Shown here: in pieces, positions 5,669 through 58,990 of the stretch
How positions within the stretch are numbered: the first letter of the stretch is position 1
How the letters are laid out: every line of letters starts with the position of its first letter
Assembly (NCBI GenBank): GCA_021798955.1
Contig: JAJZBK010000011.1
Location: 8,695 to 72,694 of the forward strand
DNA length: 64,000 nt
Direction of reading: 5' to 3'
DNA from: Actinomycetes bacterium
GTDB taxonomy: Bacteria; Actinomycetota; Acidimicrobiia; Acidimicrobiales; RAAP-2
The notes under the pieces: generated by a model
Databases searched by the model: none
Told to the model about the DNA's origin: nothing
What the model saw: only the letters and a program-made list of their open reading frames with translations
Translations under genes and position numbers: made by a program

Positions 5669-6052
5669 GTGGCCGACGAGCGCGATGCCTCCGGGCCAGC
5701 AACTGAGGGAGCTGAGGGAATCGGGGGAGCCGAGGGGCTCTCCGACGACGAGCGTGCCTCCCGACTGGCCGACCTTACGGCTCTCATCGAGCTCATGCGT
5801 CCGGCCGTCCAGGCGGACGGCGGAGACCTCGTGCTGCTCGGTGCCGATGTCGAGTCCGGAGTGGTCGACGTGCAGCTCCAAGGGGCTTGCAGCTCGTGCG
5901 CGATCAGCGCGTCGACGCTCCAAGGTGGCGTAGAGCGCATCCTGACCGGTCGGCTCGACTGGGTCACCGAGGTGCGAGGCGGTGTCGACGAGTCGATGGA
6001 CCCCTTCGCTGCCGATGCTCTCGGTCGCGGAGGCTACGTCCCGGGCTTCTGA
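5669..6052 (+). CDS. NifU C-terminal-domain Fe-S scaffold protein
   Basis: A 127-residue protein whose C-terminal 80 residues are an Nfu domain: LMRPAVQADGGDLVL, then GACSSCAIS with the CxxC pair that binds a bridging [4Fe-4S] cluster with a second subunit, then a helix before RLDWVTEV. It should carry and donate Fe-S clusters in the cytosol. GTG 5669 is preceded by the purine run GAGGAAGAGG at good spacing. About 40 acidic, low-complexity residues precede the domain. A -10-like TACGCT lies at 5614-5619. Confidence 0.88.
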   Translation: MADERDASGPATEGAEGIGGAEGLSDDERASRLADLTALIELMRPAVQADGGDLVLLGADVESGVVDVQLQGACSSCAISASTLQGGVERILTGRLDWVTEVRGGVDESMDPFAADALGRGGYVPGF

Positions 6053-32320: not shown

Positions 32321-34159
<1,839 letters not shown>

Positions 34160-34223: not shown

Positions 34224-36305
34224 TCAGCTGGCCGGGAGGGGTGTGACACATGTCGAGGAGCACGAGGCCTTGTCGGCGAACGCGTTGATCGTCCACGATG
34301 GCGTGCCCGGCGACAGGTAGTAAGGAGGGGCAATGAAGTCGAGCCGACTGTCCCAGTTGTACTGCACGTAGTTATAGCCGCAGCCCGTGTTGGAGCCGCA
34401 GTTGCCCCCGGGGGAGCTCCCCTCGATGTCGACGTAGTACTCGGCGATCACGCCGTTCACGTTGATCACGCCGAGCTGCTGTCCGACGTCGAAGTTGTTG
34501 ACGGTAAAGGAATGCTGCAGCGCCAGGATGACGGCGTCGAACCGTGGGCTCGGCAAGTCACAGGGAGTATCGCTGACACCGGACGAGGTGACGTCGAAGG
34601 CTCCAGTAGTACCACACAACGGCTCGTTCTTGCCGCTTCCACCCGTTCCCTGCTTGATGGGGTGGTTTACCTCGACGAAGTTGGTGGCGATCAAACCGAG
34701 GATGTCGTTGACGGCACCAGGGCTGGTGTTGATGGCGCACACCTGGCTGGCCGTGGTCGGGGTGGGGTCGGCGCTGTTGGGGTTGCCGTTGTTGGGGTTG
34801 CCCGGGGGCGTGGCGCCACAGTCCTGGTAGGTGATGTCGTTCATGGCGACGATGTCGTTGTCTGCGCCGATCGTGAGGGCTCCGGAGAGCCCGACGTTGT
34901 TCTGCCAGTTGCTCGGGTCATAGACCTTGTTGCCGACGAGTGCATCACCCTCGCAGTTCGACGAGTTCGTGCTCCCGAAATAGCCGTGCTGTAGGGGGTT
35001 CTTCTTAGTGGAGCAGTTCGAGGAAGTGGTCTGGACGAAGACCACGCCGTTTGCCGGAAGAGGGATCGGCGCGCTCGGGTCGCCCGAGGGAGGCAGGCAC
35101 GTGCTGGTGTCCCCGGCATCGTTGTTGGCGTCGATCGGGTTACCGCTGGCAGAGGTGCCACTCGTCGGTGTGTCGGGGCTCGAGACGATGATCCCGCTCT
35201 TCCCATCGAAGACGATCTGGGTGGGACCCGAGTAGAGGCAGCCGTTCGCCTTGGCCACCTTGGTGAGCGCAGTCTTTCCAACTACGTCTGAGGGCGGTTT
35301 CACGATCGGGTGCACGATGGACGTGCTGTAGGAGGGTGGCGTAGTTGCGACACCGTAGTTGGCCTGATTGTTGCATCCGTAGGACGTCCACGGGCCCTCT
35401 TGGATGGAATTGCCGACGACGGTACCGGGACGGCTATACGGGTCAGCGGTGTTGATGGGCTCACCCGGGTTGCCGACGTAGGTTTTCCCCGATTGGGTGC
35501 CGAACTGACAGACGAACAGAGGATCGTCCGAGAACATTGGGCCGTTGAACCACGTACCTGGTGGGTTGTATGCGACGTTGTTGTTCAGGCACCCCGAGCT
35601 GTAGGGTACAGCGCCGTTCGTCGTCTGCTGCCCGGCGGCGTTGGTCGTCACCGAACCCCAGGCCAGGCTGAGGTACTGGACCCCGTTCACGGTTGTCGTA
35701 TCGGGCTTGCAAGTACGGGTGTCGCCCTGGATGGCGGGGTCGTAGATCCCATGCACCGACCACCAGGCGTTGGTCAGGAAGTCGTTGGCTTGTTGGAAGT
35801 CGATGGTGGCCGAGTTGAACTGGTAGCGACCACCGTTCTCGACGGTACCGTCGATGGTCACGCTGACGAGGTTGTGGGCGGTGTCGAACGACGGATTGTG
35901 GATGGCGAACCACTCGGCGGGCGTGCTCCCTGTCCCCGAGCCCGGAACCTGGTTCCAGGCGTCGAACTTCATGTTGAAGCCAGTCTGGCTGTCACACGCC
36001 GGGGTCGAGCCGGCGTTGGTGCTGTTGCAGATCACTCGTACGGGATCGGTGTTGATGAGGTAGAGGTACTCGTTCAGCCCGGCTTGAACGGCCCGATAGG
36101 CGTCGTGCTGGGCGATGTTGTCGGCGACGACAGGAAGGACGTCGTTGGTGCTGGCGACGAACACCGTGGCACCGAGGACCATGATGAGGACGAGGCCCAT
36201 CACGAGGAGCATGGCCGCTTGGCCTCGATCGGAGCGCTCGCGGCGATGAGCGGTGTAGATGCGGCCGCCCACGGCGGCGCGAGCGGCATGGTGGGTCAAG
36301 TGCAT
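34224..36305 (-). CDS. PilX-like pilus-assembly protein, large (cassette B)
   Basis: A 693-residue protein with an N-terminal pilin-like segment: 28 mostly charged residues ending RSDRG, then [21 protein letters not shown] as the hydrophobic helix. The usual Glu at +5 is missing, as in PilX-type proteins. The long exported region has many Cys and Asn-Gly-Ser stretches. Shared with its paralogue at 40197-42593 are [17 protein letters not shown], a beta-solenoid-like run ([19 protein letters not shown]) and [16 protein letters not shown]. Last gene of a giant PilV/PilW/PilX set, 37 bases after the PilW-like stop. Probably a minor component or tip subunit of a surface pilus; no enzymatic motif. 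Confidence 0.75.
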
Positions 36306-36342
36306 GAGGTTCCTCCCCGGAGCGCCGTCGGGTTGCGCGTCG

Positions 36343-37257
36343 TCAACCCACGACCTCCGAGTAGCTGATCGCGATGGGCGTGACCGACGTGGCGTACCCG
36401 GATTGGAGGCCGTGAAGCTTCTGGACGGTGAGGTTGATGTCGACGCGGGTGATCTGGTCGGCCGGGCACGTGGTGATGCTGGTGCAACTGTTGGCGCCGA
36501 AGTCCGTCTGCCAGGGGGACCCGGCGGCGGTCGAGTACGGCGTGGGGCTGGTGTTGGCGCCCCAGGTGTACTGCAGGATCGGGTTTGCCGTGCCAGCAGC
36601 CGAGCCCGGTCCGTTGACCACGTCGTCGAGGGAGACGACCGTCTTCGGGTTGGCCGTGTCCCACTGGCAGTAGGTGGGGTTGGCGCTGTCGGGTTGGAAC
36701 GGGCAGGTCCCCGCCACGGCCCTGGCCTCGGTCATGGTGAAGGTAAAGGTGCCCGGCCCGACACCGGACGGGTACGGGGCGGTGTTGGGAGTAGTGGTGA
36801 TGGTGAAGAGCGCCGGACCGTTCGGGTCGCCGACGTTGGCGGTGAAGGTGGCCGAGAACGGACCAAGCGCGAACGGTCCCGAAGAGGAACTGCCGGGGGC
36901 CGGTTGGAAGGGAGGCACCGGGACGAGGACGGCATCGACCACTGCTTGTGGGGCTGGTTCGACCATCGACCGGAAGAAGGCCTGGAGGGTGGTGGTGGTC
37001 GGGATGACCTCGGTGAAGCCGCTGGAGCTCCGACTGATGGAGTTCTGCTGGCTGTAGAAGAACGTGATGACGGTGGCGCTCACCGCCATCACCACGGTCA
37101 GGATGCTCATGGCGACCAGCACCTCGACCAGGGTCATCCCGTCGTCGGTGGCCCGGCGCAGCCGGCGGGGCTGGGCGACGCGCCACCCGTTCGCCGCCGG
37201 CGCCGGGTGGGCGACGCCCCGGCTGGCGTGGCGCACCTTTGGCACGGGCCGGCTCAC
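36343..37257 (-). CDS. PilW-like minor pseudopilin (cassette B)
   Basis: A 304-residue type IV prepilin. A 40-residue basic leader ends in DDG, followed by MTLVEVLVAMSILTVVMAVSATV, with Glu at +5 (E45) for assembly. Prepilin peptidase should cut after G40. The exported part is beta-rich with Cys in pairs (TCPF, YCQW, NSCTSITTCP). GTG 37257 overlaps the giant pseudopilin's stop by four bases, which rules out the longer start at 37485. Shares length class and ending with the paralogue at 42597-43682. Confidence 0.85.
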   Translation of the reverse strand: MSRPVPKVRHASRGVAHPAPAANGWRVAQPRRLRRATDDGMTLVEVLVAMSILTVVMAVSATVITFFYSQQNSISRSSSGFTEVIPTTTTLQAFFRSMVEPAPQAVVDAVLVPVPPFQPAPGSSSSGPFALGPFSATFTANVGDPNGPALFTITTTPNTAPYPSGVGPGTFTFTMTEARAVAGTCPFQPDSANPTYCQWDTANPKTVVSLDDVVNGPGSAAGTANPILQYTWGANTSPTPYSTAAGSPWQTDFGANSCTSITTCPADQITRVDINLTVQKLHGLQSGYATSVTPIAISYSEVVG

Positions 37258-39854
37258 GGCACGCTCGCCAGGGTGATCGGCACCGCTGCCGGGAACGGGT
37301 AGGTGACGTTGTTGGCACCGTCGGTCACCCCGGTGGTGCCCACGGAGATCGTCTCGGTCGCCGTGGCGCCGGCTGCCGCGTCGGTGGCCGTCAGGGTGAA
37401 GGTGAGGCCGTTCCCCACGGGGACGCCCGCCTCGCTCGTCCCGTCGGCACCGGTGGTGGGAAGGTCGAAGGTGTCGTTCGCACACCCGTTCGAGGTGACT
37501 GTCAGCGACAGGGCGACGCCGCTCAGAGGAGCGCCCGAGTTGCTGAGCACGGTCGTCCGGAGGAAGCCGAGCGGAACGGTCGAGGACGTCGTCCCTCCGG
37601 GTGGCACCTGGACCGTGGGGAGGGTGAAGGTGGGCACCTCGGCCTGACAGCTCGCGTCACCGGCCCAGAGGTTGTAGAAGTAGTTGAAAGGGAAGAGGTT
37701 GCCAACCTGGGGCGGGTCCGGGGTGGACGCCGACGTGTAGGGCGCGGCCTGGTAGGTGGGTGCGCCGGAGGCCGTGTAGGTCCCGGTGGCTGACAGCCCG
37801 CTGGCCGACACCGTGATGGGGAGCCCGGTCGCGGTGGCGCCGTCCCAGGCGACCGACGACGTGAGCCCGGGGTCCTGGCTCCAGCTGCCCCCGCCGTCGC
37901 TACTGGCGAAGACCACCGGTCCCTGGTTGGACTCCCCGACGGCGTCGCAGGCGGTCGAGGTGGAGCAGCCCACTCCGGAGAGGAACTCGACGGAGGCGTT
38001 GAGGGAGGGGAACGCCCACGACCACGCGCCCCCGGCCAGCGTGCCGGTGGCCTCCACGCCGCCACCAGGCCCGGAACCGGACAGGAGGCAACTGGTCGAC
38101 GACGAACAGGTGAGGGAGGTGACCGTGGCGAACGAGGACGCCAGGGTGGCCACCGACGACCACGACTGGCCACCGTCGGAGGTGGCAGCCACGGTGCTCG
38201 ATTCGGTTCCCGAGCTCACCGTGGAGACGACCATCAGGCAGTCGCTGGCGTCGACGCAGGCCACCGGACCCGTGGCGGCGATCCCGGAGGGGAACGAGGT
38301 CGCTGCCGTCCAGGTCGTCCCCTGGTTGGTGGTCCAGAGCGCGGTGAGGGAGCCACCGACTGAGGCCGAGGCGACGCACAGCGGTGGGCTCGATCCGTTG
38401 ACCGCGTCACAGGCCACGTCGGCCACGTCGGTGGTCGTCGGGGGAACGGCCTCGGTGGCCCACGAACCGGAGCCCGAGGTCGTGTCGAGGATGATCCCTG
38501 TCGCCGACGTACTAGTCGTGCCGGTCGCCGACGTGCTGGTCGTGGTGCCGCTGCCGGATGCGAAGCACAGGTTGGCCGAGGAGCAGGTGACGGACGTGAG
38601 CGAGGCGACCTTGGTGGTGAGCGAGGCGGGGAGCTCGCTCGTCGCCGAGGATCCCGCCACGTCGAGCAGGACGGGCGCGTTGGGACCGTCCGTGCCGATG
38701 GCGTAGCAGTTGGACCCGTTCGAGCAGGCGACGCCGGTGAGGTCGGTCGACGGCACGGGGGTCGAGATGGTGGTGAGCGAGCCGTCGTGGTAGGAGAGGA
38801 CGACGCCTCCGCCACTGCCGGAACCAACCAGCACACAGGTGCCGTTCGGTAGGCACGACACCCCGTTGATGGCCTGGATGCCGTTGGGCACCGGCACCAT
38901 GGCGGCCTTCCCGTCCTGCACAGCCACCAGATCGGCACCGCCGCGCTCACGTCCCCAGGCGAAGCAGGGCCCACTGGTCGGGCAGGCGAACCCGTCGGCC
39001 AGGTCGGTCTGCGAGGCGTAGGCGAGGTTGATGGCGCCGCCGTGGTCGTAGAGGAACTCGTAGGAGGTCGTCGTGCCCGGCGAGACGACGAGCGGCGTGG
39101 TCGACGACGGTGTCGGGTTCTGGGCGGTGTTGTCGACGTAGGTGTTGGGACTTGGCCAGCCGGACGACGAGAGCACCACCGAGTACGTGCCTTGGGGCGC
39201 CGGCAGGAAGAGGCACCCTCCTTGGGGAACGGTCACCTGGGTATGGCCGTCCGGGAACGGGCTCGGGGAGAAGGTGGCGATGACGGCTCCCTGGTTGCTG
39301 TCGTAGGTGAGGCCGTTGCCGAGCGCGTTGTCGACTTGGATGGCCAGGTAGCCATCGGTGGTCGACAGTGCGCCGTAGGGCGGGTTGAGGACGGAGGTCG
39401 TCGAGATCGAATTGGCGTACGAGTGTGTCGTCGGGTTCGTCTCCTTCCCCCAGCTCACGGTGGCCACGGCCGAGATCACCTGGGGGGTGGCGCCGGGTGT
39501 GCACAGGTTCCCGCTCAGCCCCGCCTCGGCCCACGCCAGGTTGACGGAGGTGTGGTAGACGGTGCCTGCCACCGTCACGTCAGGCGCGAGGTAGGTGCCG
39601 GGGACGCTCGGGTAGCTGTCGAGCGCCAGCGTGTTCAGGTGGCTGATCCACTGGTCGGCGACCCCGGTGGCGGCCACACGCTCGCGGGTCTGGCTCGCTA
39701 CCTGGGTGACGCTGTCGATGAGGTAGCCCATGGGGACCAGGGCGATCAGGAGGACCATCAAGGCGACGATGACCTCCAGCAGGGAGAAGCCGGGGTCTCC
39801 TCGGTCGGCGCCGGTGGCCCGCCGCGTGGCGAGCGCACGGCTGAGGGGGCTCAC
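37254..39854 (-). CDS. Giant PilV-like pseudopilin with Cys-paired propeller-like repeats (cassette B)
   Basis: An 866-residue prepilin, several times longer than normal. Leader 1-22 ends DPG; FSLLEVIVALMVLLIALVPMGYLID follows with Glu27 at +5. Residues about 60-285 form a pilin/Ig-like region (GGCLFLPAPQGTYSVVL). From C291 to about 680 there are eight repeats with the pattern V-x-C-x4-6-C-x-x-x-G, for example VSCLPNGTCVLVG, VACSNGSNCYAIG, VTCSSANLCFASG and VGCSTSTACDAVG, spaced about 45-60 residues: the look of beta-propeller blades each closed by a disulfide. The C-terminal 130 residues are another Ig-like domain (VPLGFLRTTVLSNSGAPLSG). GTG 39854 has GGAG seven bases upstream. Function as pilus-tip adhesin is inferred. 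Confidence 0.8.
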   Translation of the reverse strand: MSPLSRALATRRATGADRGDPGFSLLEVIVALMVLLIALVPMGYLIDSVTQVASQTRERVAATGVADQWISHLNTLALDSYPSVPGTYLAPDVTVAGTVYHTSVNLAWAEAGLSGNLCTPGATPQVISAVATVSWGKETNPTTHSYANSISTTSVLNPPYGALSTTDGYLAIQVDNALGNGLTYDSNQGAVIATFSPSPFPDGHTQVTVPQGGCLFLPAPQGTYSVVLSSSGWPSPNTYVDNTAQNPTPSSTTPLVVSPGTTTSYEFLYDHGGAINLAYASQTDLADGFACPTSGPCFAWGRERGGADLVAVQDGKAAMVPVPNGIQAINGVSCLPNGTCVLVGSGSGGGVVLSYHDGSLTTISTPVPSTDLTGVACSNGSNCYAIGTDGPNAPVLLDVAGSSATSELPASLTTKVASLTSVTCSSANLCFASGSGTTTSTSATGTTSTSATGIILDTTSGSGSWATEAVPPTTTDVADVACDAVNGSSPPLCVASASVGGSLTALWTTNQGTTWTAATSFPSGIAATGPVACVDASDCLMVVSTVSSGTESSTVAATSDGGQSWSSVATLASSFATVTSLTCSSSTSCLLSGSGPGGGVEATGTLAGGAWSWAFPSLNASVEFLSGVGCSTSTACDAVGESNQGPVVFASSDGGGSWSQDPGLTSSVAWDGATATGLPITVSASGLSATGTYTASGAPTYQAAPYTSASTPDPPQVGNLFPFNYFYNLWAGDASCQAEVPTFTLPTVQVPPGGTTSSTVPLGFLRTTVLSNSGAPLSGVALSLTVTSNGCANDTFDLPTTGADGTSEAGVPVGNGLTFTLTATDAAAGATATETISVGTTGVTDGANNVTYPFPAAVPITLASVP

Positions 39855-39980
39855 GGCACGCTCCGAGGGGAAGAGGTGCCCGACCTGACCGCCGGCACGT
39901 GCCTGCTGGTGGAGGGGGGCTGCATGGCCCGTGGCTCAGTGCCCGTGTCTCGTGGTGGTGTGGACATGTCGCTCCACGCC

Positions 39981-40008
39981 AGCGTACGAGAATCACGGAG
40001 CGTGACAA
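39981..40008 (-). promoter_or_regulatory. Candidate promoter of pseudopilin cassette B
   Basis: Minus-strand TTGTCA (40008-40003), a 16-base spacer and TACGCT (39986-39981). This would start a transcript with a leader of about 120 bases before GTG 39854, which has its own GGAG. Confidence 0.45.
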
Positions 40009-40028
40009 ATAAGTGATTCTACGTAGTG
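39997..40028 (-). promoter_or_regulatory. Conserved upstream block, cassette B copy
   Basis: Minus strand reads CACTACGT, two variable bases, AATCA, then CTTATTTGT, CAC and GCTCC. The copy before cassette A (46500-46538) has the same words in the same order with a 10-base insertion and without the CAC. Confidence 0.6.
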
Positions 40029-40196
40029 ATTGGGAGCTGACTGGGCGGCTGGGTGTGGGCGCGTCCCGCGGGTAGCCGGCTCGGCAGGGACCGTGTGCGC
40101 CGTCTCGCCGAGCGGCAGTCGGATCGTTGGCGGAGGTATGGCTGTCAGCCGGAGCAGGGCAGGTAGCTGTCGTTGGCCGTCGGTCGGCGTTGGCTC

Positions 40197-42593
40197 TCAG
40201 CCGTAGTTGGGCAGCCCACCGTTCGCCGCGCCGCAGTACGACGAGGTCGGGTTCCCGCCGCTCTTGTACGGAGCAGGCAGGCTCGGGCACGATCCCGAGG
40301 TCGGGGAGACGACTGTTCCTGAGGAGGAGGCCAACTGCCACGACGGCATGGTCGGCACCAGGTAGCTCGGCGGGGAGACGAAGTCGAGGAGTGGGTCCCA
40401 TGTGTAGTACTTGCTGTAGCCACTCACGTAGCTGCTCCCGCTGAAGGTGCCGACCGGGCCGCGGGCGAACTGCTGGATCGACCCGTAGACGATCAGCTTC
40501 CCTTCCGGAGAGCCGACCGTGTAGTTGTTCACGACGAAGGACTGGCTGAGGGCGAGGACAGCGGCATCAATGGTCACGTTCCCGCTGCTGGCGGCCGGGT
40601 TGCACAAGGGGCCGGGCGCGCCCACCGGGCAGGCGGGGAGCAGGTGCCCACTCGAGGGCGACACGGGTTGGTTGACCTCGACGTACTTCTCGGCGATCAA
40701 TCCCAGCGTGTCGTTGGTCCCGCCGGGGTTGAAGGGGCAGTAGCTCTCCGATGGTGTCCCCGACCCGGGGGCCGCGCCGGAGGCGCTCTCCCACGAGCAG
40801 TCGTCGTAGGTGATGTTGCCGTCGATGACGATGTTGTTGGCCGAGCCGATGGTCAGCTCCCCGGACAGGTTGCCGTGGACGAAGGCGTCCCCCTCGCTAT
40901 CGGGTGTCGGTGTCTCCCCGTAGTAGCAACTGCCGCACCCACCCGCCGACACCTGGGAGTCAGGCCCGTACGTCGTCGACGGCTGGAGCGAGCGGTGATG
41001 ACCGAGCGACCCCGACGACGCCGTCGTCGTCGCGTTGCCCGAGTACCTCGCGGTGAACCCGCCAGTGCCGTTGGATGCCTCGGTGGTCGTGCACGTGGCC
41101 GTCGATTCGTAGGTCGCCGGCGTGGTCGCCGGAACGACCGCTACCGGGGCCGACAGCGGCTGGGCCGAGCAGCCCGCGATGACCGAGGTCTGATTCCGGC
41201 GTCGACACCCCCACCAGTGGCACACCCGCCGGGAGGTGGTCTGGCGGAACGTGACGGTCGCACCGGTGTCGAGGTCGCTGCTCGCCGAGGTGACCGTCGC
41301 CGTCAAGGTGACCGACGCGGACCGCCTGGGTGGGGACGGGCTCGCCGTCAGGTCGGTCACCGAGTTCGACACCGCGTCGTCGAACGGGTTGGCCCCGGCG
41401 ACCGTCTGGCCCGCTGTGGCCTTCTGGACGAAGACGACACCGTTGGGCGGGATCGGTGCTGTCCCGTTGTTGGGGCAGTCGTTCAGGTTCGCGCTCAGGT
41501 TGTTGGTGTCCCACTGGTGGCTGACGCCGTTGACGACCACCGTCTGCTCGTGGGTGTCGGGGCTCGAGACCGTCATGGTTCCGTGGTCGAGGGTGATCTG
41601 GGTCGGCCCCGAGTAGAGGCAGCCGTTCTGGGCGGCGATCGTCCCGAGCTGGGTGTCGTCCTGGGGCGGGACCTCGAGGGGGTGGCCGTTGGCGCTGGTT
41701 GTCGTGTCGTAGACGCTCACCGAGGTGTCGGCCTTGCTGCAGTTGACGGAGCCCCCGCTCATGCCGTAGCTCTGGTTGACGAAGAGGCAGTTCGGGTCGG
41801 CAGTCTCGACGGTGCTCGGGTTGGAGGCGGTGCCGAAGGACGGGCCGCCGGAGACGAACAGCGAGTCGTTGGAGTAGATCGGACCGTTCAGGTAGTCCCC
41901 GGGGCCGAAGTAGACCGGTGAGCATCCGAGCGTGCCCCCCAGGATGTCGTAGTTGCCGAGGGGGCCACCGGTCGGGTTGTCGTGCTTCGTCGCCCAGTTG
42001 TAGTTGCACGTCGAGTAGTTCCCCGACGCGTTGTACGACTCGTAGTTCGTCCACCACACGTTGTCGAGGAAGCCGTTGGACGGGGTCACGGTGAGCGTTG
42101 ACGTCTCGAAGACGTAGTGGTTCGCCGCCGTCGGGTCGTAGGCAGCCCCGACCACCTGGACGGTGAGCGTGGTGAGCGAGCCGCTGGGGCCGATCGTCGG
42201 TTGTGGGTTGCCGAAGGCGTAGTACTCGGTGTCCGCTCCATTGACCCCGGAGCCCGACACCTCGTTCCAGACCTCGTACTTCAGCCCGCTGCACGTCCCG
42301 CTCCCGTTGGTGGTGCTGTTGCACTGGGCCAGACTGGGGTTGGTGTTGATGGCGGTGAGGTAGCTGTTGACGGCGGCTTCGAGGGCCCGGTTGGCATACA
42401 CCTGGCCGGCCTGCCGCTGCTGGACGGAGCCGGACTGGACGGTCTCCTGCAACAGGAACGCCCCGGTGGCGGCGAGCCCGACGGTCAGGGCGATGACGGC
42501 GACGATGGCGGTCTGACCAAGGTCATCACGGGTGCGCCGGCGGGCTGGTCGCCATGCCCTGCGAGCCTGCTCAAGTCGGGTGCGGACGTTCAT
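40197..42593 (-). CDS. PilX-like pilus-assembly protein, large, with Ig-like insert (cassette A)
   Basis: A 798-residue paralogue of the 34224-36305 protein. The N-terminus is 26 residues ending DDLG, then QTAIVAVIALTVGLAATGAFLL. Conserved points are [37 protein letters not shown] and DTLGLIAEKYVEVNQP. It carries an extra segment of about 150 residues (near 405-555), starting SVTDLTASPSPPRRSASVTLTATVTS with later FTARYSGNATTTASSG, which looks like a bacterial Ig-like (Big_3-type) domain absent from the other copy. ATG 42593 is three bases after the PilW-like stop. Likely an exposed minor pilus subunit. Confidence 0.75.
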   Translation of the reverse strand: MNVRTRLEQARRAWRPARRRTRDDLGQTAIVAVIALTVGLAATGAFLLQETVQSGSVQQRQAGQVYANRALEAAVNSYLTAINTNPSLAQCNSTTNGSGTCSGLKYEVWNEVSGSGVNGADTEYYAFGNPQPTIGPSGSLTTLTVQVVGAAYDPTAANHYVFETSTLTVTPSNGFLDNVWWTNYESYNASGNYSTCNYNWATKHDNPTGGPLGNYDILGGTLGCSPVYFGPGDYLNGPIYSNDSLFVSGGPSFGTASNPSTVETADPNCLFVNQSYGMSGGSVNCSKADTSVSVYDTTTSANGHPLEVPPQDDTQLGTIAAQNGCLYSGPTQITLDHGTMTVSSPDTHEQTVVVNGVSHQWDTNNLSANLNDCPNNGTAPIPPNGVVFVQKATAGQTVAGANPFDDAVSNSVTDLTASPSPPRRSASVTLTATVTSASSDLDTGATVTFRQTTSRRVCHWWGCRRRNQTSVIAGCSAQPLSAPVAVVPATTPATYESTATCTTTEASNGTGGFTARYSGNATTTASSGSLGHHRSLQPSTTYGPDSQVSAGGCGSCYYGETPTPDSEGDAFVHGNLSGELTIGSANNIVIDGNITYDDCSWESASGAAPGSGTPSESYCPFNPGGTNDTLGLIAEKYVEVNQPVSPSSGHLLPACPVGAPGPLCNPAASSGNVTIDAAVLALSQSFVVNNYTVGSPEGKLIVYGSIQQFARGPVGTFSGSSYVSGYSKYYTWDPLLDFVSPPSYLVPTMPSWQLASSSGTVVSPTSGSCPSLPAPYKSGGNPTSSYCGAANGGLPNYG

Positions 42594-42596
42594 GGT

Positions 42597-43682
42597 TCAC
42601 CCCACGTTCTTCGAGTACTGGAACGGAAGGTCCGGGGCGACCGAGTTCCCCTGGTCGCGGTAGGTGATGACTTGGGTCTCCGTGCTCCCGTTCGTACCCG
42701 ATCCCTTCTGGTCGACGATCAGGTCGATCGTCACGCTCTGGATGGCGTCAGCCGGGCAGCTGGCCGCCACGTCGAGGTAGGTCCCGTTTGGTTTCGTGCA
42801 CGTCGTGAGCGACAGCGTCGACGTCCCCGAGAGGTCCTTCGCGAAGGGCGTACCCGTCACCGAGACCGACCCGCTGGTTACGTCGGCGGGGGTCAGGGCC
42901 AAGGTGGCGTCGATCTTCGGGTCGAAGAGGTCGTAGCTGAAGAGCTGCTGGCCCGACTGGGACGGGTCGTTCACCACGCCGGAGACGTTGTCGATGAGTC
43001 GGTAGGACGACCCGTACTGGCACACCGCGGTGCTCTTCGACGAGAACGGGCAGGTGCTCACCCCGGGGGTCGACTGGATAGGGAGGTACTCCTTCACCTG
43101 GAAGTTGCACGGGTCGGCCGTCGAGCAGGTCGCCGTCGCCGCGCCGCCGGGCGTCGTCTCCTCGGCGACGATCTTGGCTGGGCCACAGACGGTCGACGAG
43201 CCGGTCGGGCAAGCGTTGGCGCCGCCGATGGTCCCGACGTTGGCGTAGAAGGTGAGGGTGAAGTTCCCGATGCCCGAGATGTTCCCCGAGGTCTTCGAGA
43301 GGTTGTCGACCCCGAAGCCGGGGACCGGTCCACCGCCGGCGTTGTTCGGGTTGTCCGAGGGGCCGGGCTCGACCTCGGCGCGCAGCAGGGGCTGGACGAC
43401 GTTGATAGCAGGGCTGACCTGGTCGAACTCGCTGTTCTGAGCGAAGACCTCGGTGCCGATGTTGAGGAACGTCGTGTAGGTGACGAGCACGATGGTGAGG
43501 AGGACGACGAGCAGGCCCGAGGCGATGAGGAGCTCCACGAGCGTCATCCCCGAGTCGTCCATGGACCGGTCGTTTCGCTCGGTGTTGCGCCGAACCCGAC
43601 GGCGCAACACCGAGGCGAGGAGCGCCTGCCGCCGCTGGGGCACACCACCCGCGAGCGCCTGCCATTGGGGTATGCCGGTCAC
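42597..43682 (-). CDS. PilW-like minor pseudopilin (cassette A)
   Basis: A 361-residue type IV prepilin. The 45-residue Arg-rich leader ends MDDSG, then MTLVELLIASGLLVVLLTIVLVTYTTFL with Glu at +5. The passenger is beta-rich with several Cys (NACPTGSSTVC, TCSTADPC, TCPFSSKSTAVC). GTG 43682 overlaps the giant pseudopilin stop by four bases, so the open frame upstream to 43883 is not used. Its counterpart is 36343-37257; the end motif (Ile-x-Tyr and two to three more residues) is similar in both. Confidence 0.85.
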   Translation of the reverse strand: MTGIPQWQALAGGVPQRRQALLASVLRRRVRRNTERNDRSMDDSGMTLVELLIASGLLVVLLTIVLVTYTTFLNIGTEVFAQNSEFDQVSPAINVVQPLLRAEVEPGPSDNPNNAGGGPVPGFGVDNLSKTSGNISGIGNFTLTFYANVGTIGGANACPTGSSTVCGPAKIVAEETTPGGAATATCSTADPCNFQVKEYLPIQSTPGVSTCPFSSKSTAVCQYGSSYRLIDNVSGVVNDPSQSGQQLFSYDLFDPKIDATLALTPADVTSGSVSVTGTPFAKDLSGTSTLSLTTCTKPNGTYLDVAASCPADAIQSVTIDLIVDQKGSGTNGSTETQVITYRDQGNSVAPDLPFQYSKNVG

Positions 43683-46477
43683 GAGGAAACCACCAGGGGA
43701 GTGCTGCCGTACGCGGTGACCGTCGGGCCCGTAGTGGGCGTGAACGACTCGTAGCCGGCACCCACGGCGACGGTTCCGACCTGCGTCGAGCCGACGCCGA
43801 GCTGGTAGGTGCCGAACGGCACGGCGATGGCGCTGGTGCCCATGGGCGACGTGGCCGGGAGCGTGTAGGTGTCGGACCCGCACGCCGTGAGCGTCAAGCC
43901 GGCATCGGGGAGTGCCGCGCCAGTGGACTTCGTGATCTCGAGCGACAGGAGGCCGAGCGGCAGGGTGGCGGTCGCCGGGTCGCTGGCAGGGGTGGTCGGC
44001 GTGGCGCCCGGGATCGTCGTCAGGGCGGCGGTGGGCCCCGACGGCGTGGACGTGTCGCAGCCGACCGCAGCGACCTCGTACCCGTCGGGTTGTGGGTAGA
44101 GCAGGTTGGGCAGAGTCGTGACGTTCGAGGACGCGTCGGACTGGTAGGGGCTCTGGGTCACCCAGCTACCCGAGCCGGCCGCGTCGGTCCGGACGGCGAC
44201 GCCGTCGACGGTGTCGCCGAAGAGACCCGCAGGCGTTTGGACGGACCAGGTCGAAGCGCCGGGTCCGGCGTCGGTGGTGAGGACGACAGGCCCCGAGGTG
44301 GACGAGCCGACGGCGGCGCAGGTCCCCCCGTTGGCCACGGGCTCGCAGGCGACGCCGTAGAGGGCGTCCACGGCACCCGCAGCCGGTGGCAGTGCCACGT
44401 CGGCCCACGTCCACGCGCCGGCGTCGAGCGATCCGTCCTCGAGGTAACCGGTCCCCGTGCTCCCAGCCTGCACCACGGCGGTGACCGCACAGTCGGCGGT
44501 GTCGCTCCCGCTGGGCTCGCCGCAGGAGACACCGGTCAGACCGGACGTCCAACCCGACGCGGACGAGCTTCCCGAGATGGCACCCGGGAGCGCCTGCTGC
44601 GTCCAGGCATCGGGCAAACCGGTCCAGAAGGCGGGTGCACCCGTGGTGAGGGTGCCGATGACGGCGCACGTCGCCTGCGTGCAGGAGAGCTGAGCGAACG
44701 ACCCGACGCCCGTCGGAGACGTCGGATCGTCGGCCCAGCCGGTGGCGGGCGCGGCGGACCCGCTGGCTGGGGCGTTGGTCTCAATGATGACCGGGTCGGT
44801 GGCGCTGGTCGAGTCGCCGGTGGCCAGCGCCACGCACAAGGTGGGCGACGGGCAGACGAGCTGCCCGACGGTGGTGAGGCCGGTCGGCATGGAGTCGGCG
44901 GACACCGTGGGCATCCAGCTCGGCGTGTTGGCGAGGGCCGACGGATCGCCGCTCAGGCGCACGACGCCCGGGGTCGGGGCGGCACCGCTCACGCTTCCCT
45001 CGCCGCTCACCAAGCAGAGGGAGCTTGTGGGGCAGGCGATCGAGCTCAGTGTCGTATAGGTCGTATTGGCGAGCGGCGGCAGGGTGACCCAGGTGTCCGG
45101 GTGCCCGGGCCCCTCGCCGACGTCCCCGGCCAGGATCACCGGCCCAGTCGCTGTCAGTCCGATGGCATAGCAGCCGTTGGCGGACGGGCAGGCGACCTGG
45201 GTGACGTCTTCGACCCCCGAGGGGACGGTGTCGCCCGTGGCAGTGGACAGGGTGGTCTGGGTGGTGTCGATCACGCCCGTCGACGTGCCGGCGGTCGTGT
45301 GCTGGCCACCGGCGACGCAGGTAGAGGATGCCGACGGCGTACATGCCACTGCGTTGAGCGTCGACATGCCCGGAGCGGCTCCAGCCGACCACTGGCTCGA
45401 TGCTCCTCCCCAGGCAGCGTCGGCGAGTGACGCGCCCGGGGTCGCTGACGCCCCTCCTGCGACCACGCAGGTCAGCGTCGAGGTGCCCGGGCAGGCGACG
45501 ACGCCGTCAACCGGTGTGGCCGAGCCGTAGGTGACCCCGGCGGTGACCCCCTCGTCGAATTCGACTGCGGGCAGGCCGAAGAGGACGGACACGGTCTCGG
45601 TATCGCTGACCGTGACCGTCTGGGTGAGGTTGCTGGTAGCGCCGTACTGGTCGACGAACGACGGGGTGCCGAGGTTGGGCTGGCCAAGCGTGACCGAGTA
45701 GGTGCCGGGAGGGAGCTGGGCGAAGATACAGCCGTTGCTGTCGGGTTTGAGCGTCAGCGTCAACGGGGGCGTGGCACCGGTGCTGGCGACGGTCACAGGG
45801 ATCGCTTCGAGCCGGGTGGTCGATGAGTTGCCGTTGACGTCGCTCAGGGGCGAGTTGTGGATACTGACCTCGAGAAAGCCGTCGGTCTGCACGCCGGGCT
45901 GTGGGTACTCGAGCATCGTGGCGTCGGACAGGCGCTGGAGGCCGTGGTCCCACGAGACGGTGACGTGGAGCACGATCACGCCAGGGTGGTTGGGGCTCGG
46001 TGGCTCGTCCTGCCCGCACAGGTCGCTCTGGCCGACCCCCGAGCTCACGGCCTGCTCGGTGTACTCGGCGCTGACCGTAAAGGTCGTGCCGGCCAGTGTC
46101 GTCTTGGGCTGCTGGACTCCTGACGGGAGCGCAGGTGGCGAGAAGACGACGTTCGTCTCGACCGCTCCGTTCTGCACGGGTGGTGTCGAGTTGGAGAGGA
46201 TCTCGACCCACGACTCGGCGAGGCCGAGGGCCGCCTCACGCTGGCGGGTCGACGTCGAGCTCGCCAGCTCGGCGTCGAGCGTGTAGGCCATCGGGACGAT
46301 CGTGATGAGCAGGATGACGAAGGCGACCAGCACCTCGACGAGCGAGACACCTTCGTCTCCCCGGGCCCGGCGGGCCTCGCGCCGGCACGCGAGGCACCAC
46401 CGCCGAGCACGATGACAGTGCCCATCGATGGTAGCAATGTGTGGCAGTACGCCCGCGCTCCGTGCTGTCCTGATCAT
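43679..46477 (-). CDS. Giant PilV-like pseudopilin with Cys-paired propeller-like repeats (cassette A)
   Basis: A 932-residue prepilin from ATG 46477 (TTG 46519 is the only longer option and lies in the conserved upstream block). The leader of 43 residues ends GDEG, then VSLVEVLVAFVILLITIVPMAYTLD with Glu48 at +5. An Ig-like region (GCIFAQLPPGTYSVTL) precedes eight Cys-pair repeats from C329 to about 760, such as VACPSANGCYAIG, IACPTSSLCLVSG, LVCPSPTLCVALA and LSCTQATCAVIG. The C-terminus is an Ig-like domain (LPLGLLSLEITKSTGAALPD). Same architecture as the 37254-39854 protein but clearly diverged. Predicted surface or tip subunit; ligand unknown. Confidence 0.8.
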   Translation of the reverse strand: MIRTARSAGVLPHIATIDGHCHRARRWCLACRREARRARGDEGVSLVEVLVAFVILLITIVPMAYTLDAELASSTSTRQREAALGLAESWVEILSNSTPPVQNGAVETNVVFSPPALPSGVQQPKTTLAGTTFTVSAEYTEQAVSSGVGQSDLCGQDEPPSPNHPGVIVLHVTVSWDHGLQRLSDATMLEYPQPGVQTDGFLEVSIHNSPLSDVNGNSSTTRLEAIPVTVASTGATPPLTLTLKPDSNGCIFAQLPPGTYSVTLGQPNLGTPSFVDQYGATSNLTQTVTVSDTETVSVLFGLPAVEFDEGVTAGVTYGSATPVDGVVACPGTSTLTCVVAGGASATPGASLADAAWGGASSQWSAGAAPGMSTLNAVACTPSASSTCVAGGQHTTAGTSTGVIDTTQTTLSTATGDTVPSGVEDVTQVACPSANGCYAIGLTATGPVILAGDVGEGPGHPDTWVTLPPLANTTYTTLSSIACPTSSLCLVSGEGSVSGAAPTPGVVRLSGDPSALANTPSWMPTVSADSMPTGLTTVGQLVCPSPTLCVALATGDSTSATDPVIIETNAPASGSAAPATGWADDPTSPTGVGSFAQLSCTQATCAVIGTLTTGAPAFWTGLPDAWTQQALPGAISGSSSASGWTSGLTGVSCGEPSGSDTADCAVTAVVQAGSTGTGYLEDGSLDAGAWTWADVALPPAAGAVDALYGVACEPVANGGTCAAVGSSTSGPVVLTTDAGPGASTWSVQTPAGLFGDTVDGVAVRTDAAGSGSWVTQSPYQSDASSNVTTLPNLLYPQPDGYEVAAVGCDTSTPSGPTAALTTIPGATPTTPASDPATATLPLGLLSLEITKSTGAALPDAGLTLTACGSDTYTLPATSPMGTSAIAVPFGTYQLGVGSTQVGTVAVGAGYESFTPTTGPTVTAYGSTPLVVSS

Positions 46478-46499
46478 AGTGTTTGATGGCAGGCTACAA

Positions 46500-46538
46500 G
46501 GAGCACAAATAGTGAGCAATACATGATTGCACGTAGTG
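46500..46538 (-). promoter_or_regulatory. Conserved upstream block, cassette A copy
   Basis: Minus strand reads CACTACGTGCAATCA, a 10-base segment, then CACTATTTGTGCTCC. Homologous to 39997-40028. It lies 23 to 61 bases upstream of ATG 46477, where a promoter or operator would be expected. The -10 is not clear (TATGAT overlaps the ATG). Confidence 0.55.
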
Positions 46539-46672: not shown

Positions 46673-47881
46673 TCAGTAGGACTTGCCGAGGCCGAGGGAG
46701 TGTTGGGCGACGAAGTTGAGGACCATCTCGCGGCTTACCGGGGCGATGCGGAACAGCCGGCACATGCCCCACAAGTCGGCCAGGCCGTACTCGGAGGAGA
46801 GGCCGTTGCCCCCGAGGGTCTGGATGGCCTGGTCGAGGGCGGCAAGGGCCGCTTCTGCGGCCGCGTACTTGGCCATGTTGGCCGCTTCGCCTGCCGCGGC
46901 GACCCCAGCGTGGTCAGTGGCCCGGTCAGTGGCCCGGTCAGTGGCATGGTGAGTGGCATGGTCGTGGAGCCAGGCCGCCTTGGCGGTCATCAGCCGCGCC
47001 AGCTCGACTTCGACCTTGGCCTTGGCCAGCGGGTGGCTGAGTCCCTGGTGCTGGGCGATGGGCACGCCCCACACCGAGCGTTCCCGTGCATAGGCGGCGG
47101 CCGTGTCGAGGGCGTAGCGGGCCATGCCGCAGGCGATGGCCGCCGACATGATGCGCTCGGGGTTGAGCCCGAGGAACACGTGGCGTAGGCCGTCTCCCTC
47201 CGTACCGACGAGCCGGTCGGCGCCGACCTCGACATCGTCGAAGAAGAGGGTGAACTGCTTCTCGGGGGCGGCGATCTCGACGGGCAGCACCTCAGCGGTG
47301 AGCCCCGGCGCGTCGGTGTCGACGACGAAGAGGGAGAGCCGGCCGCGTCCGGTGTCGGGGTCGACGCCGGTCCGGGTCACCACCAGCATCGACTCGGCTT
47401 CGTCGACCCCCGAGATGTAGTACTTCGTCCCGTTCAGCCGGTAGACGTCGCCGTCGCGGGTGGCGGTGAGGGCGAGGTTGTGGGAGTTCGACCCGGCGTC
47501 GGGCTCGGTGATGGCGAACGCCATGCGCAGCTCACCGGTGGCGAACCCGGGCAACCACCGCGCTCGCTGGTCCTCGGAGCCATAGGCGGCGATGATGGTG
47601 GCGCAGATGGCCGGGGAGACGAGCATGAGGAGGAGGGGACACCCCTGGGCGGCGACCTCCTCGGCCACCAGGGCGAGCTCGGTGATCCCGCCGCCGCCGC
47701 CGCCGTAGGCAGCGGGAACGTGGACGCCGAGATAGCCGGAGGCACCGACGGCGTCCCACAGCTCGGTGGAGCGTCCCCCGGCCTTGGCCTGCGCCGCGTA
47801 GTAGGGGTGGCCGAACCGGCTGGCGATCGCTGCCACCGCCTCGCGTAGCAGGCGGTGCTCTTCGGGCTCGGTGAAGTCCAT
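46673..47881 (-). CDS. Acyl-CoA dehydrogenase (AtuD-like by context)
   Basis: A 402-residue FAD acyl-CoA dehydrogenase. Seen: PEEHRLLREAVAAIASRFG at the N-terminus, FAITEPDAGSNSHNLA and YYISGVDEA in the mid domain, and QTLGGNGLSSEYGLADLW with RIAPVSREMVLNFVAQHSLGL at the end. In the helical C-domain a 12-bp repeat inserts ATDRATDRATDH-type residues, an unusual extension in a loop before AGEAANMAKY. It is the last gene of a carboxylase/AtuA operon, 108 bases after atuA, so citronellyl-CoA or another branched acyl-CoA is a reasonable substrate guess. Confidence 0.88.
   Translation of the reverse strand: MDFTEPEEHRLLREAVAAIASRFGHPYYAAQAKAGGRSTELWDAVGASGYLGVHVPAAYGGGGGGITELALVAEEVAAQGCPLLLMLVSPAICATIIAAYGSEDQRARWLPGFATGELRMAFAITEPDAGSNSHNLALTATRDGDVYRLNGTKYYISGVDEAESMLVVTRTGVDPDTGRGRLSLFVVDTDAPGLTAEVLPVEIAAPEKQFTLFFDDVEVGADRLVGTEGDGLRHVFLGLNPERIMSAAIACGMARYALDTAAAYARERSVWGVPIAQHQGLSHPLAKAKVEVELARLMTAKAAWLHDHATHHATDRATDRATDHAGVAAAGEAANMAKYAAAEAALAALDQAIQTLGGNGLSSEYGLADLWGMCRLFRIAPVSREMVLNFVAQHSLGLGKSY
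46912..46962 (-). repeat. 12-bp in-frame tandem repeat in an acyl-CoA dehydrogenase
   Basis: About four copies of GGTCAGTGGCCC and variants (GGTCAGTGGCAT, GGTGAGTGGCAT), encoding Ala-Thr-Asp-Arg/His units. Confidence 0.85.
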
Positions 47882-47989: not shown

Positions 47990-49908
47990 TCAGTGGGGAA
48001 GGCCGGATTCCGACCCGGCCGGTGGATCGGGGACCCGGGCCGTCTCCGGGGCACGCCGGTCCGCCGGGACGAGGGCGAGCGGGACGTCCACCAGCCGACT
48101 GCGCAGGTACTCACCCAGTCCCTTGGCTTGGGGGTCGGGGCGGGTCGACGCGGCGACGCCCTCGCCGAGCAACCCGACTACCACGAAGTTGAGGGCCCGC
48201 AGGTTGGGCAGCTCGTAGCGGTCGACCCGGAGGTCGTCGGCTTCGGGGAGGAGGGCACGGAAGGCGGTGGTGGTGAGGGTCGACCGCAGCCAGGCCCAGC
48301 CGGCCTCGTCTCGTGCCCAAAGGCCGACGTTGGCATTGCCTCCCTTGTCCCCCGAGCGAGCACCGATGATGGTCCCGAGGGGGAGGCGTCTGGCGGGCAC
48401 GTGCGGTACTGCCCCATGGGAGGCTTGGGAGGCTTGGGAGGCTTGAGAGGCTTGAGAGGCTTGGGAGGCTTGGGAGGCTTGGGAGGCTTGGGGCGCGATG
48501 TCGGCGGGCCGAGGGACGGGCTGCGGTTGGCCTGCTTCGGCGTGCTCGAAGGCCGAGTGGGGCACGGGCACCCGTCGGCCGTCGGGGTGGACGACTTCGG
48601 GGGTGACGAGCGACGCCGGGACCAGTGCCGGCCAGTAGATGCCGTAGCTCGTCCCTGCCGTCGGGGGCGCGGTGAGATGCAGCCCCGGGTAGCCGGCCAG
48701 GGCAAGTTCGGTGGCGGCGTCCGAGAAGGCGCGGCCTACCCGTTTGCCGTCCCGGTCCTTCACCGTGATGCGCAGCTGGGCGGTCGCCTCGGCGTTGGTC
48801 GGGGCGTCGGGGTGGTCGGACCGGATGAGCGTGACGTCGAAGGCGTCGAACTGGTCGCGACCGCCGAGCGCCTGCTCGAGGGCGGCAAGGGTGAGCGCGG
48901 CCTTGGCCTCGATGTCGAGGCCGGTCAGCACGAAGGTCATCGTGTTCCGCCACCCGCCCAGCAGGTTGACGCACACCTTGACGTGGTCGGGCGCGGGCTC
49001 GCCCCGGGTCCCCGACAGACGTACCCGGTCGGGGCCGTCGTCGGTGAGGGAGATGGTGTCGAACCGGGCCACCACGTCCGTGTTGGGGTACTCGGGCCCG
49101 GCGATCTCGTAGAGCAACTGCGCGGTGACCGTCCCCAGGGAGACCTCGCCGCCGGTACCAGGGTGCTTGGTGATGACCGACGAGCCGTCCTCGGCGACCT
49201 CGGCGATCGGGAACCCGGGGTGCTCAAGTCCGGACACCTCGGTGAAGAACGCATAGTTGCCCCCCGTTGCCTGAGGCCCGCACTCGATGACGTGGCCGGC
49301 GGCCACTGCTCCGGCCAGGCGGTCCCAGTCGGTGGGTGACCAACGGTGGTGCCAGGCCGCGGGACCGACGACGAGGGAGGCGTCGGTGATGCGGGGGCAC
49401 ACCACGACGTCCGCACCGCCGTCGAGGGCTTCCACGATGGGCCAGGCTCCGAGGTAGGCGTTGGCGGTGACCACCTCGGCGCCCCGCTCGGCCAGGTGCT
49501 GCCCGGTGTCGAGGTTGTCGAGGCGGTGGCCGGCAGCGGCGAGCTCGTCGAGGCGGGGCAGGAGATCGTCACCCTCGACGTGGGCGACGGCCACGTCGAG
49601 GCCCAGCCGCTCGGCGACATGACGGACCTCGTCGGCCAGGCCGGCCGGGTTGAGACCGCCGGCGTTGGTGACGACCTTGATGCCCCGGTCGACACAGGTG
49701 CCGAGGACCTGCTCCATCTGGGTGAGGAAGGTCCGGGCGTACCCCTTGGTCGGGTCTGCCTGTCGCGACTTCCACAGGATGAGCATGGTCAGCTCGGCCA
49801 GCCAGTCGCCGGTCAGCACGTCGATGGGACCACCCTCGACCATCTCCCGGGCGGCGCTCAGCCGGTCGCCGTAGAACCCGGAGCAGTTGGCGATGCGGAT
49901 CGGGTCGC

Positions 49909-49912
<4 letters not shown>
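47990..49912 (-). CDS. AtuA-family protein (acyclic terpene utilization, DUF1446)
   Basis: A 640-residue protein. Residues 1 to about 450 are the DUF1446/AtuA domain, with IRIANCSGFYGDRLSAA at the N-terminus, TNAGGLNPAGLA, VANAYLGAW-type and PRITDASLVVGPAAWHH motifs. A linker of eight QAS triplets (48418-48489) follows, then the AtuA-like C-terminal domain (IIGARSGDKGGNANVGLWAR). In Pseudomonas AtuA belongs to the citronellol/geraniol catabolic cluster; its reaction is not established. ATG 49912 overlaps the biotin carboxylase stop (ATGA). Confidence 0.87.
48418..48489 (-). repeat. 9-bp in-frame tandem repeat in atuA-like gene (QAS), 8 copies
   Basis: GGGAGGCTT with two GAGAGGCTT variants in the middle, between the two domains of the AtuA-family protein. 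Confidence 0.95.
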
Positions 49913-52410
<2,498 letters not shown>

Positions 52411-52477
52411 CGGTCGCCTCTCGGCAGCGCGCCGGTCTCCGGACTTCCGTCGGTCGGTCGTGCGTCCACGGTGCCGG

Positions 52478-54076
52478 TCACATCCGGAAGACGCCGTAGC
52501 CGCGAGTCCCGGCGATGGGTTGGGTGTCGATGACGGACAGGCAGAGCCCGAGGATCGTCCGAGTGTCACGGGGGTCGATGACGCCGTCGTCATAGAGCCG
52601 ACCGCTCAGGAAGAGGGGGAGCGACTCGGCTTCGATCTGGGCCTCGACGGCAGCGCGCATGGCGGCGTCGGCCTCCTCGTCGAAGGGCAGGCCACGTGAG
52701 GCGGCCGACTGACGCCCGACGATCGAGAGGACGCCGGCGAGCTGGGTGGGGCCCATGACGGCCGAGCGGGCGTTCGGCCAACTGAAGAGAAACCGGGGTT
52801 CGTAGGCACGGCCGCACATGCCGTAGTTGCCCGCCCCGTAGGAAGCGCCGATGTTGACGGTCAGGTGGGGCACAGACGAGTTGGTCACCGCGTTGATCAT
52901 CTGGGCGCCGTGCTTGATGATCCCGCCCTGCTCGTACTCCTTGCCCACCATGTAGCCGGTGGTGTTCTGGAGGAAGAGGAGGGGGACGTCGATCTGGTTG
53001 GCCAACTGGATGAACTGGGTGGCCTTGTGGGCTTCCTCGGAGAACAGCACGCCGCGATGGTTGGCAAGGACGCCGATCGGGTACCCGTGGATGGTCGCCC
53101 AGCCGGTCACCAGGCTCGAGCCGTAGAGCGGCTTGAACTCGTCGAAACGGGAGCCGTCGACGACGCGGGCGAGCACGTCGCGGGGGTCGAAGGGGACCTT
53201 CGGGTCGGCCGAGGCGATGCCCAGAAGCTCGTCGGGGTCGTAGCGCGGTGGTTCTGGCGATTGGGCGGGGCCCGGACCGCGCTTGCGCCAGTGGAGGCGG
53301 CGCACGATCTGGCGGCCCAGTCGGATGGCGTCGTGCTCGTCGACGGCCAGGGCATCGGCCAGCCCGGAGACCCTGGCGTGCATGGAGGCGCCGCCCAGCT
53401 CCTCGTCGTTGGACTCCTCTCCGGTCGCCATCTTGACGAGGGGCGGTCCACCCAGGAAGACCTTGGAGCGCTGCTCGATCATGACGATGTAGTCGCTCAT
53501 CCCCGGCACGTAGGCGCCACCTGCCGTCGAATTGCCGAAGACGAGGGCGATGGTGGGGAGGGCGGCCGCCGAGTGACGGGTGAGGTCCCGAAAGGCGCGC
53601 CCCCCGGGGATGAACAGCTCGGCCTGGGAGGGGAGGTCGGCGCCGCCCGACTCGACGAGGTTGATGATGGGCAGGCCGTTCTGCAGAGCGATGTCCGATA
53701 TGCGGGCGCTCTTGCGGAACGTGTAGGGGTTCATGGCCCCCCCGCGCACGGTGGGGTCGTTGGCGCTGATGACGCACTCGACGCCTTCGACGACGCCGAT
53801 GCCGGCGACCACCGAGGCACCGACGGTGAAGTCCGAACCCCACCCGGCCAGTGGGCAGAGCTCGAGGAACGGCGAGTCGCGGTCGAGGAGGAGCTCGACC
53901 CGCTCGCGGGCGAGGAGCTTGCCGCGCTGGCGGTGTCGCTCGCGGTAGCGGGGGCCGCCGCCATCCCGGGCCAGGGCGAGCTGCGCCTCGACCTCAGCGA
54001 GGGCGGCGAGGAGCGCGTCCCGGTTGGAGCGGTACTCGGGCGAGCCGATATCGAGCGTAGAGGCGAGGACGGGCAC
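52478..54076 (-). CDS. Acyl-CoA carboxylase beta subunit (carboxyltransferase)
   Basis: A 532-residue carboxyltransferase moving CO2 from biotin to an acyl-CoA. N-terminal RERHRQRGKLLARERVELLLD is the family start; oxyanion-hole regions are VESGGADLPSQAE with FGNSTAGGAYVPGMSDY, and GASYGAGNYGMCGRAYEPRF in the C-terminal half. NTTGYMVGKEYEQGGIIKHGAQM places it with methylcrotonyl/geranyl-CoA carboxylase beta chains rather than propionyl-CoA types. The start is GTG 54076, with AGAGGAG 13 bases upstream and a possible -10 TATTCT at 54130-54125. First gene of the operon. Confidence 0.9.
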   Translation of the reverse strand: MPVLASTLDIGSPEYRSNRDALLAALAEVEAQLALARDGGGPRYRERHRQRGKLLARERVELLLDRDSPFLELCPLAGWGSDFTVGASVVAGIGVVEGVECVISANDPTVRGGAMNPYTFRKSARISDIALQNGLPIINLVESGGADLPSQAELFIPGGRAFRDLTRHSAAALPTIALVFGNSTAGGAYVPGMSDYIVMIEQRSKVFLGGPPLVKMATGEESNDEELGGASMHARVSGLADALAVDEHDAIRLGRQIVRRLHWRKRGPGPAQSPEPPRYDPDELLGIASADPKVPFDPRDVLARVVDGSRFDEFKPLYGSSLVTGWATIHGYPIGVLANHRGVLFSEEAHKATQFIQLANQIDVPLLFLQNTTGYMVGKEYEQGGIIKHGAQMINAVTNSSVPHLTVNIGASYGAGNYGMCGRAYEPRFLFSWPNARSAVMGPTQLAGVLSIVGRQSAASRGLPFDEEADAAMRAAVEAQIEAESLPLFLSGRLYDDGVIDPRDTRTILGLCLSVIDTQPIAGTRGYGVFRM

Positions 54077-58761: not shown

Positions 58762-58990
58762 GATGCGAGTGAGCAACGGCGGGATGATGGGTCGGTGGCT
58801 CGACCCCGAGGGGGATGGTCGGGAGCCGGTGGCGGTGGCGGTAGCGCGTTGTCGGGTCGCCTCGGTCGCACGGGGCGGGGACGGCGACCGGGGCAGGGCA
58901 GGGAGCGCGTGTCGTCGGAGGGATAACGAGGCGGGTCCGCCGTGCCGGCCGTCTTCCGGTCCTTCGGCAGCGAGGCGGCAAGCGGCATGA
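58762..58990 (+). CDS. Possible small leader protein (75 residues) before the CpaB-like gene
   Basis: ATG 58762 is preceded by GGCGGAGCACG (Shine-Dalgarno GGAG) about 39 bases after the predicted promoter, and its TGA overlaps ATG 58987 of the CpaB-like gene (ATGA). The product begins MRVSNGGMMGRWLDPEGDGR, then turns Ala/Arg/Gly-rich and resembles no family. The placement argues for a translated leader that couples initiation of the next gene; the composition argues that it may be untranslated leader sequence. Confidence 0.35.

Follow-up and report, generated by a model that had tools for sequence, protein, structure and literature searches.

Why should a single bacterial genome carry, side by side, two three-gene sets of pilin-like proteins of unusual size, and what could the cell do with both? 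The question is posed by a 64-kb window (the whole stretch of DNA that was analyzed, C15:8695-72694, to which window positions below refer) in a 2.5-Mb genome of 54 contigs that is 92% complete. The two named relatives that sequence comparison brought up are Acidimicrobiales MAGs, and the organism very probably belongs to that order too. Six intact reading frames on the minus strand form two V-W-X cassettes in tandem, in the order and at the positions that the original prediction had given. Cassette 1 consists of V1, a modular minor pilin of 932 aa (43679-46477) with a PilV/GspI-like N-terminus (G/VSLVE, the slash marking the cleavage site); W1, a PilW/GspJ-like minor pilin of 361 aa (42597-43682; G/MTLVE); and X1, a large pilin-like protein of 798 aa (40197-42593) that keeps the cleavage glycine and lacks Glu5 (G/QTAIVA). 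Cassette 2 follows the same plan with V2, again a modular minor pilin (37254-39854, 866 aa, G/FSLLE), the PilW-like W2 (36343-37257, 304 aa, G/MTLVE) and X2 (34224-36305, 693 aa, G/QAAMLL, without Glu5). The exact four-base overlap of V and W was likewise found in both cassettes, as GTGA; we discarded it as a sign of recent duplication because overlaps of four bases, or of 1 base, occur in many single-cassette relatives and are common in the family. All three pairs proved homologous on pairwise alignment, as anticipated: V1 and V2 match at BLASTP E 5e-30 (32% identity, MAFFT), W1 and W2 at 7e-18 (34%) and X1 and X2 at 1e-39 (40%). X1 is under purifying selection relative to its orthologue in genome G060 (dN 0.13, dS 0.39), and the GC content of X2 (0.626; third position 0.834) lies below that of neighboring genes.

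The site has conserved flanks on both sides, typA downstream (TypA/BipA, named by similarity across relatives and by sequence; 32321-34159, minus strand) and an acyl-CoA dehydrogenase (ACAD)-like gene upstream (46673-47881, minus strand). Otherwise ordinary metabolic genes between 46673 and 52593 of the window contain in-frame short tandem repeats, with ATDR-type repeats in the acyl-CoA dehydrogenase, ASQ repeats in 47990-49912 and AWP/ARP and GDDPT repeats in 49909-52593; ELP-type runs on another contig, C41, resemble them.

The N-termini indicate what kind of proteins these are. V1, W1, V2 and W2 carry a class III prepilin signal (Gly at -1, Glu at +5, then a hydrophobic helix) recognized by N_methyl or IV_pilin_GFxxxE matches, and these motifs, with the sizes of V and X given above, agree with the idea of minor-pilin-like sets bearing very large modules. 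Among 21 X homologues, the cleavage-site Gly is present in every one and is followed by Gln in 20, then by a hydrophobic stretch, and Glu5 is missing from all 21. A Glu5-less signal marks a subunit that can have no pilin above it (K of HIJK, PilA of the S. sanguinis PilABC complex; PMC10191384, PMC9934059), and X bears this hallmark of a subunit that would cap, or be the first to enter, a type IV pilus tip. Family names have to be used with care. V1 scores 23.1 bits against the PilV (TIGR02523)/GspI equivalogs, for which the curated cutoff is 52.2; Pfam and NCBIfam scans gave neither a pilin-family match for X1 or X2 nor a match to the PilC/PilY1 beta-propeller domain; and the PilX (PF14341) N-terminal domain did not match X1 or X2 at E <= 1, the label PilX-like denoting missing Glu5 and gene position only. 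With scores below cutoff or no match, we did not retain V, W and X as orthologues of PilV, PilW and PilX, or as PilY1. N_methyl is the only Pfam domain over cutoff in the window proteins.

The bulk of V and X lies beyond these signals. In V1, the pilin module extends to about residue 190 and is followed by beta domains, eight Cys-Cys repeats (residues 327-760) and a C-terminal beta domain; V2 likewise has eight repeats (290-670), and most relatives have seven to nine. The repeats, found with our own HMM, are about 50 residues long with the consensus VACPSTTTCVAVGTGSSGSTAVILSGTIGTSTTWTADTLPSGVTSLTTLSS and would look like a beta-propeller with one disulfide per blade, which we regard as a candidate fold. 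AlphaFold models built from four-row alignments were poor for both V1 (mean pLDDT 42.5) and X2 (mean pLDDT 33.2; a helix at 24-86 and then strands, a pilin-like succession). Given such scores, the case for a pilin fold in X and for a propeller in V is made from the sequences and from the order in which structural elements are predicted. A fold search of the PDB with the low-confidence V1 model as query returned only partial, high-rmsd matches, some of them to Ig/CnaB-type surface proteins, and profile searches of PDB sequences returned nothing useful. The lengths of X in the different cassettes run from some 670 residues to more than 4,000. Two cassette-1-type orthologues reach 4,026 residues (G008, L024:9950-22033) and 2,459 residues (G009, L056:8468-15847) because 35 and 15 fibronectin type III (FnIII) stretches, respectively, follow the X core at the C-terminal end; typA comes directly after both giant genes, and in a third genome, G019, an open frame extends over about 3,900 residues. 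Both orthologues are longer than the 860-residue pilin that a 2021 survey of modular pilins (PMC8179133) highlighted as extreme for its number of domains, and their FnIII stalks would fit an exposed, far-reaching adhesin.

Which machine could assemble such proteins? The original prediction saw no ATPase or platform gene beside the cassettes, which is true of the cassettes themselves but not of the window, where Tad/Flp-type ATPase and platform genes (60812-64000) lie about 14 kb away. They belong to a Tad/Flp-type locus (58942-64000, continuing to about 66000 of the joined contig) with SAF-like, CpaE-like, TadA-type ATPase, TadB/TadC-like and TadE-like genes and a possible small Flp-type pilin. 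The only type IV pilus machine in the genome, which has a single major pilin, is on a different contig from the cassettes: C41 carries pilA, pilC, a PilT-like, MshEN-domain ATPase and pilB and, further along, a second T2SSE-type ATPase and PilM. Exactly five N-methyl genes were found in the whole genome, pilA on C41 and V1, W1, V2 and W2, and no fourth minor pilin (H; FimU/PilH-type) was found in this 92% complete assembly. Contig C51 encodes a prepilin peptidase whose catalytic aspartates are intact; there the catalytic A24 domain stands alone (L097 around 5712-6041) near aroC/aroK-like genes. PilD seems to be split into two halves, on C41 and C51, since the gene beside pilB (C41, L004:12910-14037) has only the N-terminal, methylase-type A24_N domain, along with Gly-Thr-Cys repeats. 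The machinery on which the original prediction depended is therefore present (PilA, PilB, PilC, PilM, two PilT-like ATPases and prepilin peptidase), and its location on C41 and C51, together with the count of only five N-methyl genes, means that the cassettes were rightly said to depend on machinery elsewhere.

The two cassettes also appear to share a control element. Upstream of cassette 1, a predicted promoter/operator on the minus strand (46491-46537) consists of ACTACGTGCAATCATGTATT, 21 nt, the -10-like TAGCCT and a further 13 nt to the start codon; its counterpart before cassette 2 (39981-40027, minus strand) reads ACTACGTAGAATCACTTATT, 21 nt and TACGCT. TAGCCT and TACGCT are plausible -10 elements. 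The common box, ACTACGTNNAATCANNTATT, starts 60 nt upstream of the V1 ATG and, in cassette 2, at the same distance from the ATG at 39967 of a 38-codon leader ORF (39851-39967, minus strand) whose stop overlaps the V2 start (GTGA). In the whole 2.5-Mb genome it is found only at these two places, even with up to two mismatches allowed, and the pilA-pilB stretch has no copy. We take this two-hit uniqueness as stronger evidence for a shared box than the shuffle test of the upstream regions, in which the best local alignment was not significant under strict scoring (180 of 2000 shuffles reached its score) and was reached by none of 2000 under looser scoring. Related boxes stand upstream of V in the single-cassette relatives G059, G040 and G058, the G059 element being GGAATCACCTATTGGCCAC-N14-GTACCCTGA. 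Joint regulation of both cassettes is likely, judging from these elements.

Cassettes of this kind are a recurrent feature of the family. X homologues occur in 38 of its 172 genomes, and an order-wide search with one X sequence matched 22 of 248 sampled genomes, many of them weakly. PilM scores over cutoff in 43 family genomes, namely 33 of the 38 with a cassette versus 10 of the 134 without (both 33, X only 5, PilM only 10, neither 124; Fisher p 2.6e-21, uncorrected for relatedness); the five cassette genomes in which PilM was not detected comprise four that are 59-81% complete and one at 92%. The V-W-X order holds at all 34 loci with readable neighbors, with mostly coupled starts. At about 15 loci, a single cassette occupies the same address (ACAD-V-W-X-TypA, or adjoining whichever flank is on the contig). 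In G020 (L060/L031) and G046 (L064/L065), a further cassette that closely resembles the first was seen on a short contig of its own; these may be strain variants or paralogues. We found no paper on such cassettes in Acidimicrobiia in the open-access literature.

On balance, we think it probable that each cassette specifies the three subunits of a tip (priming) complex for the only type IV pilus of the cell, that the two sets give two kinds of tip with different targets and that cassette 2 came in by insertion. Alternative tip complexes with different ligands, as first proposed, are the best reading of the two sets. We infer a course of processing, priming, tip location and adhesion in which V, W and X would be exported and their leaders cut by the prepilin peptidase encoded on C51; V and W as class III prepilins, and X as a Glu5-less subunit at the start of the fiber, would then assemble in the membrane as a primer onto which PilB and PilC would polymerize PilA. 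The large modules of V and X would be carried outward at the tip as adhesins to bind a surface, and PilT-type motors would retract the fibers. Given a single machine and two sets that have diverged and are probably co-regulated, the cell could make pili with two kinds of tip, each with its own ligands and directed at different targets, and could use them alternatively. The second of these sets would have reached the genome horizontally, by insertion at the junction of X1 and typA; relatives have either one type or the other at this address.

The common promoter box, which suggests co-expression, could also mean that both sets enter one larger tip complex with subfunctionalized subunits. We consider that unlikely: one set, whichever its type, is enough for most relatives, and two distinct X proteins, both lacking Glu5, would be rivals for a single position. 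Nor does service in competence (DNA uptake) or in a secretion-type pseudopilus, rather than in adhesion, seem a probable role: the N-terminal matches are GspI/ComG-like and monoderm Com pili use related machinery, but separate PilT-type ATPases and PilM are present here, and the FnIII arrays of X orthologues, with up to 35 domains, better suit reach and adhesion. A DNA-binding tip is possible. That cassette 2 might be a silent store of alleles for recombination into cassette 1 is suggested by the address common to both types in relatives; its intact frames, coding-like third-position GC (0.83-0.91) and own promoter box make this very unlikely. We return, then, to two alternative tip complexes, and to how the second was acquired.

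The answer departs from the tandem duplication that the original prediction proposed. In the trees, X1, V1 and W1 group with G059, G008, G009, G019 and G040 (and with G020 where present), and X2 and V2 group with G037, G016 and G006; G037 and G016 have the cassette-2 type alone at the ACAD-typA address. Approximately unbiased (AU) tests rejected a clade of X1/G060 with X2 (p 4e-5), of V1 with V2 (p 1e-9) and of W1 with W2 (p 1e-6); W2 is less well resolved, and joining it to the whole type-1 clade was not rejected (p 0.059). By these trees, the two cassettes are deep, separate lineages. Within the genus, one other genome, G060, gave a match. Its X1 is 79% identical, and typA comes right after it; the alignment with the window runs to the X1 stop and resumes a little upstream of typA, and the roughly 6 kb of cassette 2 are absent from this junction, although the G060 contig ends inside X1 and a copy in an assembly gap is possible. 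In G059 and G058, which with G060 are the nearest genomes, the interval from X1 to typA likewise lacks a second cassette. A tandem duplication specific to this lineage, with the two copies of one ancestral cassette then diverging rapidly, would explain the adjacency, common order and common strand, and the shared box with its identical spacing to the ATG could be the relic of a duplicated promoter. Such a duplication is nonetheless most improbable in light of the AU tests, the lack of a second cassette between X1 and typA in these three genomes, and the fact that X1 is far closer to X of other genera than to X2. An old duplication with many losses is a possible origin. The genome is probably a metagenome assembly, but the coherence of both flanks and of the promoter copies makes it unlikely that two strain alleles were falsely joined. 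The simplest account is that this lineage gained a divergent cassette between X1 and typA, perhaps by transfer from an unsampled relative. More tentatively, and with somewhat less than even confidence, we suggest that the ACAD-typA interval is an exchange site in this Acidimicrobiales family, at which diverged V-W-X 'alleles' replace or join one another under a conserved promoter and so refit the tips of a single machine, with the present genome holding two alleles. There is little chance that the cassettes are instead substrates of the Tad/Flp-type system, whose ATPase and platform lie in the same window, and we judged it an unlikely exporter, because the V and W signals are of the T4aP type and match N_methyl and the cassette co-occurs with PilM.

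How would such an arrangement compare with known systems? The closest architectural precedent is S. sanguinis PilABC (PMC8179133, PMC9934059), which resembles the cassettes in having three minor pilins in one operon, one without Glu5 and others with large grafted modules, in a monoderm and with a proposed adhesive tip. Here, however, the Glu5-less X is itself giant, the modules are unrelated (Cys-Cys repeats and FnIII arrays) and two diverged sets stand in tandem. The closest working precedent is M. xanthus, in which minor pilin/PilY1 clusters 1-3 serve one machine and one major pilin (PMC7541494, PMC13190605), as the two diverged sets here face one machine and one major pilin. Those sets share less than 36% identity, and their diversity has been proposed to stem partly from horizontal transfer (PMC7541494, PMC13190605); either cluster 1 or cluster 3 alone, of the three, suffices for pili (PMC7541494). 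In contrast to M. xanthus, the present sets have no PilY1 and no FimU, their large modules are fused to pilins and they are adjacent at one address rather than dispersed. Neither precedent has sequence families in common with V, W and X beyond the N-terminus. Like GspHIJK and FimU-PilVWX, the cassettes are operons in which the V and W N-termini resemble GspI, PilV and PilW and X lacks Glu5 as K and PilX do, but matches fall below family cutoffs, there is no H subunit and the proteins are much larger. If the V repeats do form a propeller, V would also share with the PilC/PilY1 tip adhesin, which has one at its C-terminus, a propeller at the tip, although V is a pilin fusion with no PilY1 match.

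The versatility of type IV pili owes much to their tips, and what is known of natural variation in entire tip complexes comes mostly from a handful of model bacteria. The cassettes extend the view to a little-studied actinobacterial order, in which putative three-gene tip cassettes occupy a fixed address either singly, as alternative types or as a pair, and the giant modules are part of the pilins themselves. The paired arrangement described here would let one ask whether one machine primes fibers with either set.
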